Below, in pieces: positions 35,848-64,000 of a DNA stretch of 64,000 nt. Both the position numbers and the translations under genes were made by a program. The notes below the pieces were generated by a model. It was given only the letters and a program-made list of their open reading frames with translations, made no database searches and was not told the origin of the DNA. Each line of letters begins with the position of its first letter. Position 1 is the first letter of the stretch. Origin of the DNA: Arthrobacter alpinus (lineage in GTDB: Bacteria; Actinomycetota; Actinomycetes; Actinomycetales; Micrococcaceae); assembly GCF_900105965.1 (NCBI RefSeq), contig NZ_FNTV01000001.1, positions 1,984,001-2,048,000 on the forward strand, read 5' to 3'.

Positions 35848-36120
35848 TCAGTGTGCAGAGGTGTCGATCTGCTGCTGCTTCTGCTTGTTCACCAAGGTCT
35901 TGACCTGGCCAAGATCGGAAACAACGTTGGCCAGCTGCTTCTTGGAGGTGGGCCACTGGCTTCCCTTGAAGTTGTTGGCGTCGGGGCCTTCCCAGCGAAC
36001 CGACTGAGCCTTGCTGTCCAGGGTCGACATCACCTGGGTGATCTGATCGATCGCCTGTCCAAGCTTGGAGACCAAATCCGCCATGTCTGCGGGATCGTTA
36101 CCAATCATTCCACCTGCCAT
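35848..36120 (-). CDS. WXG100-family (ESAT-6-like) protein
   Basis: A 90-residue protein of the size and pattern of WXG100 secretion substrates: two predicted helices joined by a turn containing WEG ([10 protein letters not shown]), with no signal peptide. Such proteins form helical-hairpin dimers and are exported by type VII secretion, often being needed for export of other substrates. The frame is open to 36246, but [17 protein letters not shown] at 36120 is the natural start, with AAAGGATG upstream. It lies 135 bases behind the EssC/EccC-like ATPase gene, its likely transporter. Only one WXG100 gene is present, so it would form homodimers. Confidence 0.85.
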
Positions 36121-36255
36121 GATGCACATCCTTTTCATTCGCTTTGGCCCCGATGGCGTATCCAACCGGGCGACTACCAAAAATCTAACAAGCCTTTTCA
36201 CGGGCGTCGATGGGGACAACTCCCCGTACGCGCAGCCCCCTACCAAAAGGCGATA

Positions 36256-62000: not shown

Positions 62001-64000
62001 GGTGCCTTTAGTGCCGCATCCGGGGTCACCGTCATGCGTACATTGCCGGTGGCCTGCGCGCCGAATTTGTCCGCAATCGTGTACATCATGGTGGCGATGC
62101 CGGGCTCCATGGGCGAGGTCAGGAGCAATTTCCCCTTGTCGGTGACCGTTGGCTGCATCTCCTCCGGCCCCAGGAACGCTTCCTTGACCAAGCCCAGCTG
62201 TCCGCCGTCGGGGTCCGAATCATTCAACAAGACATCCAGGGCCACCTTGCGGCCCGGACGCAGGGTGATGTAGTCATCCTCGGTCACGGGCGGGTGGTTG
62301 ACAGCCAGGGGCGGGGCGATGCCAACGTCAACCCTGGCCGTGGCTTCGGCGCCGAGCCGGTCACGAACCCGGTAGGTGAAGGAATCGGTCCCGGCGGAGC
62401 TGCCACCTGCCGTGTAGTAGATAAAGCCGTTGCCTGTTTCGGCGGTACCCAGGCCCGGACCTTCATCAACGCCCACCAATTCCACGGAGTCTCCCTCAGG
62501 GTCAATGCCATTGAGGGGCACGGCAATCCGAACCTGATCTCCGGCAATAACCCGGCCCGTGAGGTTTTTCGGGGCAGGTGGCAGGTTGTGCTCGGGATCG
62601 GCCGCCACAATGGTGATGGTGACCTGGGCCGAGTTGAACTGGCCGGTGCTGTTGGCTACCTTGTACACACCCTGGACCGTCTTGGCCGTGGGCCCGGCAA
62701 TAAAGCGCAGCTGATTCTGATCGGTGAACAGCTTGCCCAGTGACTCATCCGGCGATTCCACCACCACGGGAGATTTCAACACCTCACCATTAGGGTCGGT
62801 GTCGTTTTCCAAAACCGGAATGCTCACCACGTCGCCAGCGCGCACAATGGCGGTATCGGGCTCCACCCGGGGTGGCATTAATTTATCCGGGGCCGGAATA
62901 CGGACCACGGAGATCTCGCCCGTGGCATTCCCGGCGCCGTTCGAGATGGTGTATTTAATGCCAATCTTGTCCTTCAAACCACGGACGTCCGTCAACTTGA
63001 TGATGTTGCGCTCAATGATGGTGGCGGAGACGGGCGAGCCCGGCGGCAGTTCCACGGACTGAATGACCAGCACGCCGCCGGCAGGATCGGAGTCATTGCC
63101 CAAGACATCGACCAGGGCTGAACCACCCGAGGGCAGCATGACCAGGTCCTTGACAGCAACGGGAAGCCCCTGTGAGTCGGCGTCCACCACCTGAACACGA
63201 ATCAAACCACTGGCGCTCATGGGCCCGTTGGTGACCTGGTATTCAAGATAGACAGCCCCGGCCGCGGTGGAGGTAAAGGTGACGGTGCCATTGTCAGCGA
63301 TCTCCGAAACCGTGGCGTTGGGAGCCTTTGAAACACTGGCCAGCCGCAACTTCCCACCGGCCGGATCCTGGTCGTTCTTCAAAGGGGCAAGAACCACCGG
63401 CTGCCCCACCACTGCCTTGAAGAAATCGGCGTTGGCCACCGGCGGAACACCACCGGCAGGCAAGACGTTGACCTTGATCTTTTTCTCCGTGATGTCGCGG
63501 CCGTCGGAAACTGAGACCGTCATGGTCTTCATCCCGATGCTTTCCCCGTCATCGGTGTAGCTGAGCTCTCCGTCGGGGGTGGATTTGATGACGGCCGAGC
63601 CATCGTCTGAGACTGCACCAATGAGGTAGATGTCATCGCCGTCCGGATCGATCCAATCGGTCAGGACGTTTTGGCGCATGGTCTGGCCCTGTTCCACAAC
63701 CAGTGTGGAGTCCCGCATGGTGTGCGGCGCCGTATTTTCGCTCTCCGGAACCACACGCAAATTCACCGAAGCCTGCGAAGTGCCGCCGCGGCCGTCGTTG
63801 ACCGAATATGTGAATTGTCCGGCTCCAGCCGCCGTGTCCGGGACGGCGATCTGCAGGCCGGTTCCTTCATAAATGGAAGCTACCGCTCCCACAACAGGTT
63901 CGTCGGCGGGAGGCTCCACCGTGAGCACGTCACCGTCCGGGTCGGAGTCGTTGAACAGGACCGGCAGGATCGTGGTCCGCCCAGCCCTGACACCAAAGGA
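59036..64000 (-). CDS. Giant Ig-like/FN3 surface protein B (5' end beyond the window)
   Basis: The frame is open through base 64000. The residues before the GTG at 63928 (FGVRAGRTTILPVLFNDSDP) match protein A, so the start lies outside. About 1650 residues are visible: about nine or ten cadherin/Ig-like repeats with NDSDPDGG-like signatures, a Lys/Asp-rich insertion (KKDDKDKPEEKKN), and four or five FN3-like domains (DKAVLLTWDPPADNGSPITKYTV, QIGVQWNVPFNNGAPVTKYTL). A C-terminal tip follows, with cysteines and WVQVRGCGSGYYSNWYEMS. It is colinear with protein A apart from the tip, so the pair arose by tandem duplication. No LPXTG sorting signal or C-terminal helix is seen; anchoring is expected at the unseen N-terminus. 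Confidence 0.88.
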   Translation of the reverse strand, partial: SFGVRAGRTTILPVLFNDSDPDGDVLTVEPPADEPVVGAVASIYEGTGLQIAVPDTAAGAGQFTYSVNDGRGGTSQASVNLRVVPESENTAPHTMRDSTLVVEQGQTMRQNVLTDWIDPDGDDIYLIGAVSDDGSAVIKSTPDGELSYTDDGESIGMKTMTVSVSDGRDITEKKIKVNVLPAGGVPPVANADFFKAVVGQPVVLAPLKNDQDPAGGKLRLASVSKAPNATVSEIADNGTVTFTSTAAGAVYLEYQVTNGPMSASGLIRVQVVDADSQGLPVAVKDLVMLPSGGSALVDVLGNDSDPAGGVLVIQSVELPPGSPVSATIIERNIIKLTDVRGLKDKIGIKYTISNGAGNATGEISVVRIPAPDKLMPPRVEPDTAIVRAGDVVSIPVLENDTDPNGEVLKSPVVVESPDESLGKLFTDQNQLRFIAGPTAKTVQGVYKVANSTGQFNSAQVTITIVAADPEHNLPPAPKNLTGRVIAGDQVRIAVPLNGIDPEGDSVELVGVDEGPGLGTAETGNGFIYYTAGGSSAGTDSFTYRVRDRLGAEATARVDVGIAPPLAVNHPPVTEDDYITLRPGRKVALDVLLNDSDPDGGQLGLVKEAFLGPEEMQPTVTDKGKLLLTSPMEPGIATMMYTIADKFGAQATGNVRMTVTPDAALKAPIARDDRVTVKQMLGKNTVDVPVLDNDADPDGVTEDLKVSIEAVAGRNSESASVTAGGTVRIVLAPQEQMIPYTVTDQDGLTSTAVIWVPGQDKQYPVLKSTEVIRMTAGESAVMKLADYVQVREGRTPRLTEASKISFVGAGKDNVIVGDGEGVNYASDIKFYGPGSITFEVTDGSGPDDPAGLKSTLTVMTLVDPAPAAKKDDKDKPEEKKNTPPTFTGSSLEVPQQEKATVDVGPLAFDIDPGDKEKFKYAMVGNQPGNFEVSFSGTVLTVSQRDGTKVGEQATVQLSVSDGTNEPVVAEVVLRATSTSKPQPVANEDVVLEAHAGRAEVVDVLKNDVNPFPDTPLQVVDTMTETGSAGISVTHTASSVTVNSNDDYKGTVVVRYTVEDKTKDASRHATGRIRIVIKGKPDAPTKPQVVEEKDKAVLLTWDPPADNGSPITKYTVNWTGGSQDCATNTCTVTGLTNATEYKFTVTATNAVATSAASPASATAMPDRIPDTPAAPTTTFGDKAVTVEWVTPVGEFTPVTKFNVEISPAPAGQNGQKAGVTGNSLIWPGLENGTEYQFRVQAINKAPKPSEWSPYSASVIPAGVPSAPAAPTVQVLEQVGSQNQIGVQWNVPFNNGAPVTKYTLTQSGGGEAPRTYTPTANGQTVTVNNSTEPYTFAVTATNKAGTGASSPSSTPQRAVGKVDTMGAPSIQITDQGGAGGYVIVGYTPLTQAQLKGYAANEATYCVKLSTAGAEQCGVPSGVKLASPNGAGVYATVRARASTGSQSSVGDSSGASATVTPYGVPLQTSVNGSTAGQGDKTVRWTWSAANNNGSAITRYESSLNGAGWENRGMAMSYSTGTSGYNDGASLSVRACNAGGCGAAGSATSHAGSAPPPPAPPVTEVQVKAGTWHSCTQGPGESNNFQSNPARCDHVVSPGGNNNIGGKWLDTADGWVQVRGCGSGYYSNWYEMSTGPQTNRWVRPDTVDVRDRDGGNIRC

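Follow-up and report, generated by a model that had tools for sequence, protein, structure and literature searches.

Gene content of the locus

We analysed a 64,000-nucleotide stretch of the Arthrobacter alpinus genome (4.62 Mb in two contigs), hereafter the window, comprising positions 1,984,001 to 2,048,000 of contig NZ_FNTV01000001.1, in which genes of the PFNA operon known from Bifidobacterium stand beside a type VII-like secretion motor. All genes of this locus lie on the minus strand in one run from 35848 to about 65215, ending past the window edge. Transcription proceeds from giant A (59036..64000, continuing to ~65215 outside the window; ~2059 amino acids), which has an N-terminal signal or anchor, Big_9 repeats and FN3 domains (Pfam Big_9 7e-87, fn3 3e-27), through its frame-broken paralogue giant B (52705..58814; Pfam Big_9 and fn3), a MoxR-type AAA+ ATPase (51633..52604; Pfam AAA_3 5e-62) and a DUF58 protein with two hydrophobic segments (50241..51572; Pfam DUF58 2e-12), to a TgpA/transglutaminase-like polytopic membrane protein lacking the catalytic Cys (TGM; 47632..50244; Pfam Transglut_core 7e-24, TgpA_N 3e-17). 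There follow a protein with a zinc ribbon, an RDD membrane domain and a C-terminal canonical FHA domain (RDD-FHA; 46161..47615; Pfam RDD and Zn_Ribbon_1, FHA by alignment), a PP2C phosphatase (45181..46164; Pfam PP2C_2, NCBIfam Stp1 7e-61, below its cut-off), an acidic protein with a zinc-ribbon-like segment and a C-terminal canonical FHA domain (ZnR-FHA; 43215..45188, start inferred; Pfam FHA 2e-6), and a Ser/Thr kinase with a single transmembrane segment at residues 466-484 and an outer C-terminal part (41434..43218; Pfam Pkinase 6e-41). The run closes with a 234-amino-acid protein joining a degenerate FHA-like domain, recognized by alignment, to a helical C-terminal half (40689..41393), the motor of EssC/EccC type, with a putative ubiquitin-like N-terminus, an FHA domain, a transmembrane region and FtsK/SpoIIIE domains (36256..40692; Pfam FtsK_SpoIIIE 5e-51, FHA 5e-10), and a 90-amino-acid WXG100-like protein with a WEGPDANNF motif (35848..36120; family-level profile matches), after which comes ligA.

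This is the set of genes, on the same strand and with the overlaps, that an initial annotation of the sequence had described. Neighbours overlap by 4 bases at the motor/FHA-like, kinase/ZnR-FHA, PP2C/RDD-FHA and TGM/DUF58 junctions, and ZnR-FHA and PP2C overlap by about 8 bases counted from the likely ATG. The 'fusion' of the PFNA genes with the motor, as it was then called, holds as adjacency in an operon; there is no protein fusion. A promoter scan gave no excess; there were 26 terminator-like sites, where shuffling gave 13.8 on average. The closest named Arthrobacter loci show 93-94% identity over the FHA-like protein.

Giants A and B are paralogues, each with an N-terminal hydrophobic signal or anchor, and hydrophobic-segment analysis found no C-terminal transmembrane or hydrophobic segment in them. 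Both were recognized from the start, with the corrections that A runs past the window (its likeliest start is 65215) and that B is frame-broken, its open reading frames (ORFs) at 56958-58814 (618 amino acids) and 52705-57018 (1437 amino acids) overlapping in different frames. The break, at window 56958-57018, falls between two short homopolymer runs and may be an assembly error or a true disruption. Matches to giant B occur in 19 of the 23 genomes of the genus (its own counted), some with three tandem copies; the ten best in other genomes of the genus have 68-80% identity and open frames of 2032-2048 codons, and the usual giant frame in the genus is about 2030-2110 codons long. Shorter or interrupted giant frames are also found in G316, G321, G328 and G334, and a few relatives carry a broken paralogue.

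Signalling proteins and the transglutaminase-like protein

In alignments restricted to rows above our score cut-offs, which applies to all residue counts for the TGM, FHA, kinase, PP2C and MoxR proteins, the catalytic residues of kinase, PP2C and MoxR are kept almost without exception, including the MoxR Walker A and B motifs (35 of 35 rows) and the metal Asp residues of PP2C (43 of 43). The phosphothreonine (pThr) site of RDD-FHA has its Gly, Arg, Ser, His, Asn and Gly residues in all 34 rows, and that of ZnR-FHA is canonical in 40 of 40 rows, with His in 39. For the FHA domain of the motor (15 rows), Gly129, His147 and Gly166 are invariant, with Arg130, Ser144 and Asn165 present in at least 90%. 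In the protein at 40689-41393 the domain is degenerate, Pro replacing Ser in 41 of 50 rows. These residues confirm the original count of three canonical FHA proteins and one FHA-like protein, and it is plausible, judging from the sequences, that FHA domains read the output of the kinase. PDB sequence searches with the FHA-like protein and with its C-terminal half returned nothing informative, and Pfam gave HTH_50 for that half in one of 23 members (E 0.011); DNA binding by the helical half would be a guess. Structure comparisons of the FHA-like and motor models gave lists filled with FHA domains, so that the comparisons cover those domains.

None of the 52 aligned TGM rows has the catalytic Cys, which is replaced by Asp (25), Glu (12), Ser (9), Ala (5) or Gln (1), and the His is also missing in many of them; the Cys and His losses include rows from probable Bifidobacterium genomes. 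At the Cys position of unlinked TgpA paralogues, GYC was found in four of six loci, and two gave no motif with the pattern used. We therefore rejected an active cross-linker, since the nucleophile is missing throughout. Available portions of the PFNA papers take TGM for a putative transglutaminase and presume it to be a cysteine protease, and the missing Cys corrects both readings.

The motor and the WXG100 family

All 15 aligned motors share one Walker A motif in the first ATPase domain (GGTTG.GKSE), and in the third domain GR replaces GK in 13 of 15. The motor profile matches Bacillus subtilis YukB (2e-104) and the EccC-type FtsK/SpoIIIE chain 4nh0 (4e-103). Against the NCBIfam equivalogs the motor scores 541 bits for EssC (cut-off 778) and 356 for EccCa (cut-off 509), below both. 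Residues 1-90 are modelled as beta-beta-alpha-beta-beta-beta (block pLDDT 73-89), and sequence searches with the N-terminus matched a redesigned ubiquitin (E 0.0034) and, in one of 15 members, UBX (E 0.0024); the model suggests that the first 90 residues form a ubiquitin-like domain, with weak backing from the sequence matches. The genome contains one long EssC-type FtsK ORF. No match to the YukD-type domain (PF08817) was found in it at E 1, with a positive B. subtilis control.

The WXG100-like protein of the window reaches NCBIfam WXG100_ESAT6 at E 7e-5, with 22.9 bits against a cut-off of 44.9, and has no Pfam WXG100 match. For its family the picture is firmer: Pfam WXG100 is matched at E <=0.01 by 19 of 24 aligned members (the window's own not among them), and the family profile recovers EsxA chains at 5e-7. 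The initial call of a WXG100 protein is weak for the single protein, below the cut-off as it is, and sound for the family. The genome has seven family members, three short ORFs and four of 339-526 amino acids, one with an alpha/beta-hydrolase-like region and another with DUF2515, and no EspC family member at E 0.001. The unlinked L004, L005, L006 and L007 begin with a WxGPD segment followed by hydrophobic Gly-rich, DUF2515 or alpha/beta-hydrolase-like parts, and these WxGPD proteins are candidate substrates of the motor.

Conservation of the linkage between motor and PFNA genes

To define occurrence across the order we took a sample of 149 genomes, with 870 bits or more for a motor orthologue and more than 200 bits for an FHA-like match. 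FHA-like proteins were found at 53 places in 52 genomes and motor orthologues in 41, and for 30 of these 41, from 11 families, an FHA-like gene or TGM lies within 12 kb on the same strand. Among the other 11, six have an FHA-like gene elsewhere (two on another contig) and five have none; the contig of G277 is only 5 kb. The genes recur in more than one order: giant-MoxR-DUF58-TGM-RDD-FHA-PP2C-ZnR-FHA-kinase-FHA-like-motor-WXG, or FHA-like-giant-MoxR-DUF58-TGM-motor-WXG, with a third arrangement in which PFNA genes have no motor. In families f4 and f50 the motor and RDD-FHA gene stand apart from PFNA genes in most orthologue genomes, and a sister motor clade (f29, f50) adjoins WXG genes and an FN3 giant-MoxR-DUF58-TGM run. 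On a motor tree of 63 rows, made by a quick method and with long branches flagged, the linked label requires 8 changes, when 500 shuffles average 20.6 and none of them is as low; G138 and G235 were coded unlinked despite an FHA-like gene 6-8 kb from the motor.

As a control we examined 20 non-orthologous FHA-FtsK loci from 19 families, mostly with 19 kb of flank per side (3 kb for L282, 17 kb for L284). The MoxR-DUF58-TGM trio stood in the flanks of three, once on the opposite strand and once at a locus of the sister clade, and the link is therefore largely a feature of one motor clade rather than of FHA-FtsK motors in general. In a second, named sample, the best 80 of at least 563 FHA-like loci and nearly all Micrococcaceae, a same-strand motor is present at 66; the soil strain Paenarthrobacter aurescens TC1 (L156) bears one. 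Two near-Arthrobacter copies of the cluster carry the titles Sporosarcina beigongshangi and Acidobacteria bacterium (L149, L183) and are probably contaminated or misbinned.

Incidental adjacency as the main account was rejected on the 30 of 41 linkage, the several gene orders and the tree test. The neighbourhood survey that the initial annotation called for thus gave a divided answer: the association is non-incidental (30 of 41; 66 of 80), and there is independent occurrence in some lineages.

Separability, and distribution of motor and WXG family

We searched 12 of the 14 named loci without a motor genome-wide (L183 and L217 were left out). All 12 genomes, from Micrococcaceae, have PFNA genes and no motor orthologue, with best scores of 153-255 bits, when four of four motor-bearing controls score 2119-2772 bits in the same search. 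Local maps place FN3 giants in motor-less PFNA loci of families f50, f3 and f4. At five motor-less loci (L166, L170, L227, L228, L129) the RDD-FHA gene sits at the cluster end, in the position of the motor in relatives.

The WXG family, searched with a profile from alignment A3, follows the motor: 0 of the 12 motor-less genomes contain it, compared with 16 of 16 motor-bearing genomes, with 2-9 members each, a few of them marginal and most away from the locus. These 16 were taken from the 66 named motor-bearing loci, and four of them were checked genome-wide for the motor. In the order sample the family is present in 42 of 149 genomes, 26 of the 41 with a motor orthologue and 16 of the 108 without. 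The best A3 match has E below 1e-12 in 31 genomes, 25 of which have a motor orthologue. Five of the remaining six are in f50, and the three that were mapped (G158, G229, G271) have a second motor type beside WXG genes. Between motor and ligA, eight loci (L189, L193-L196, L201, L202 and L214) have, in place of a WXG gene, an ORF of about 200 or more codons with a similar WWGR..R..H tail.

Several results limit these comparisons or weigh against a separate module of motor and WXG family. Distant FtsK-type proteins of other kinds are encoded in the motor-less genomes (153-255 bits) and, at about 400 bits, in some f3 and f50 genomes, and such a protein may serve as a substitute motor. The tree used for motor state, also made by the quick method and with its long branches flagged, needs three changes, two of which starred branches compel, and the co-variation of motor and WXG family amounts to only two to three independent events. 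There is no A3 match in 15 of the 41 motor genomes and there is one in 16 of the 108 genomes without an orthologue, several f4 and f50 loci have only a weak, WXG-less hairpin-like match 3' of the motor, and of the 80 named loci only 15 include a WXG gene that could be detected. The sequences behind the A3 profile were themselves motor-linked or from the A. alpinus genome, and one of the 16 genomes supplied a member. Taken together, the modules are conserved side by side yet separable, with independent occurrence in some lineages and not as the rule.

Relation to known systems

The PFNA operon of Bifidobacterium consists of pkb2, fn3, aaa-atp, duf58 and tgm, to which some species add prpC, a hypothetical gene and fha. 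All five core genes, whose correspondence to PFNA the initial annotation had recognized, are found here with PP2C and FHA genes on one strand, and the FN3-MoxR-DUF58-TGM order is the same. Probable Bifidobacterium genomes (f41) show the order kinase-FN3-MoxR-DUF58-TGM-PP2C. The kinase comes first there (PMC8430577, in its available portion) and after TGM and PP2C here, and the A. alpinus locus has additional RDD-FHA, FHA-like, motor and WXG100 genes and two giants. FtsK and type VII genes are not mentioned in the accessible parts of the PFNA papers, one of which states, in the part available, that PFNA orthologues were not found in other organisms. Contrary to that publication, the genes reach beyond bifidobacteria: they occur in Arthrobacter-type and other actinobacteria too.

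Among type VII secretion systems (T7SS), the closest likeness is to T7SSd, composed of TsdA, TsdC, TsdD, TsdH and TsdI and reported from Olsenella and Bifidobacterium (PMC11217815, as far as its available text goes). Both have a WXG100 protein, an FHA motor with pThr residues, a Ser/Thr kinase and a giant Ig-like protein, and no separate ubiquitin-like gene is reported. The locus here differs in its MoxR, DUF58, TGM, PP2C and separate FHA proteins, and in its giants, which have an N-terminal signal or anchor and no C-terminal transmembrane segment, whereas TsdI has an N-terminal signal and a C-terminal transmembrane segment. The motor also lies on a tree branch apart from two T7SSd-like f41 motors, whose T7SSd identity we infer. 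At L237 and L245 (f41), a T7SSd-like island comprises a kinase, an 1800-codon ORF and an FHA-FtsK motor; its GC content of 0.51-0.55, against 0.65 in another stretch of these genomes, suggests horizontal gain.

With T7SSb EssC and T7SSa EccC the motor shares architecture and profile matches, and differs in falling below the equivalog cut-offs and in the lack of a YukD-type domain. Membership in T7SSa is not upheld, no EccD ubiquitin-like (YukD) domain having been found in the genome at E 1, nor is membership in T7SSb, the EssC score of 541 bits being under 778. The general type VII marks, an EccC/EssC-type ATPase and a WXG100 protein, are present by sequence, and secretion itself is predicted. 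The main text of the 2024 survey that named T7SSc-T7SSj (PMC11217815) contains no mention of transglutaminase, fibronectin or Micrococcales, and a 2025 review, in its available portion, compares a mycobacterial moxR operon to PFNA. A description of a joint PFNA-type VII locus was not found in the literature searched, a set outside which most subscription journals fall. The best reading of the sequences would be a type VII variant that stands nearest to T7SSd and shares its phospho-control with a module for assembling surface proteins.

Proposed function and alternatives

We propose two modules under one kinase/phosphatase pair, with the motor exporting WXG100 proteins and the giants handled separately, an account to which we would give about an even chance. 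In the first, the PFNA core, the giants would use a general export route, to which their N-terminal signal or anchor points, and the MoxR chaperone, DUF58 protein and catalytically dead TGM may aid their folding and placing in the envelope. In the second, the FHA-bearing type VII-like motor would export WxGPD WXG100 proteins, both small and large with C-terminal domains. The membrane kinase would sense the envelope, its phosphothreonines would be read by the FHA domains of the motor, RDD and zinc-ribbon proteins and so switch the motor, and PP2C would reset the switch. Since motor and PFNA genes are separable in distribution, the motor is more likely an exporter of small helical proteins than of surface fibres.

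The initial annotation had instead suggested a motor for exporting or assembling the Ig/FN3 fibres, with FHA domains in control. Operon adjacency, the gene overlaps and the 30 of 41 linkage speak for it, but PFNA genes occur without the orthologue in 12 of 12 genomes, giants persist in motor-less loci and have signals of their own, and the motor tracks the WXG family; we rejected it as the main account and hold it to be very improbable. More weight belongs to a single machine in which the giants, as has been proposed for TsdI, give the type VII system a conduit across the wall or a recognition arm, and motor-less PFNA loci serve another use or another motor. In T7SSd, too, a giant Ig-like protein goes together with a kinase and an FHA motor (PMC11217815, available text), WXG genes and FN3 giant-MoxR-DUF58-TGM runs are found beside motors of the sister clade, and distant FtsK-type proteins are at hand in motor-less genomes. 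Against this, PFNA genes persist where motor orthologue and WXG family are gone, and the giants lack the C-terminal transmembrane segment of TsdI, which leaves the single machine doubtful.

Shared regulation or chromosomal habit alone, with neighbours lacking a functional link, would account for the 11 of 41 orthologues not within 12 kb of the markers (one on a contig of only 5 kb) and for the 17 of 20 control loci without the trio, but linkage in 11 families, in several orders and with overlapping genes, together with the clustering of the linked label on the motor tree, makes this an unlikely explanation. A bolder proposal, which we put forward tentatively as possible but short of probable, is a type VII subtype outside T7SSa-j. 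Its pThr-gated motor, with a fused ubiquitin-like N-terminus replacing TsxB, would work with a MoxR-DUF58-pseudotransglutaminase complex that makes of the Ig/FN3 giants a conduit across the wall, or a recognition arm, for effectors headed by WXG100; the arrangement would be ancestral to a large actinobacterial motor clade, with bifidobacterial PFNA as a motor-less relative.

The locus joins two systems that have been described apart, the PFNA operon and the recently widened type VII set. Natural relatives with and without the motor, an apparently single type VII motor and intact FHA sites make phospho-gating of a type VII motor testable in soil bacteria that are easy to handle in the laboratory. 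The PFNA authors, in the available portions of their papers, took the operon to be confined to bifidobacteria and read it as sensing host immunity; that Arthrobacter-type bacteria and further actinobacteria have its genes speaks for a general role in the envelope.

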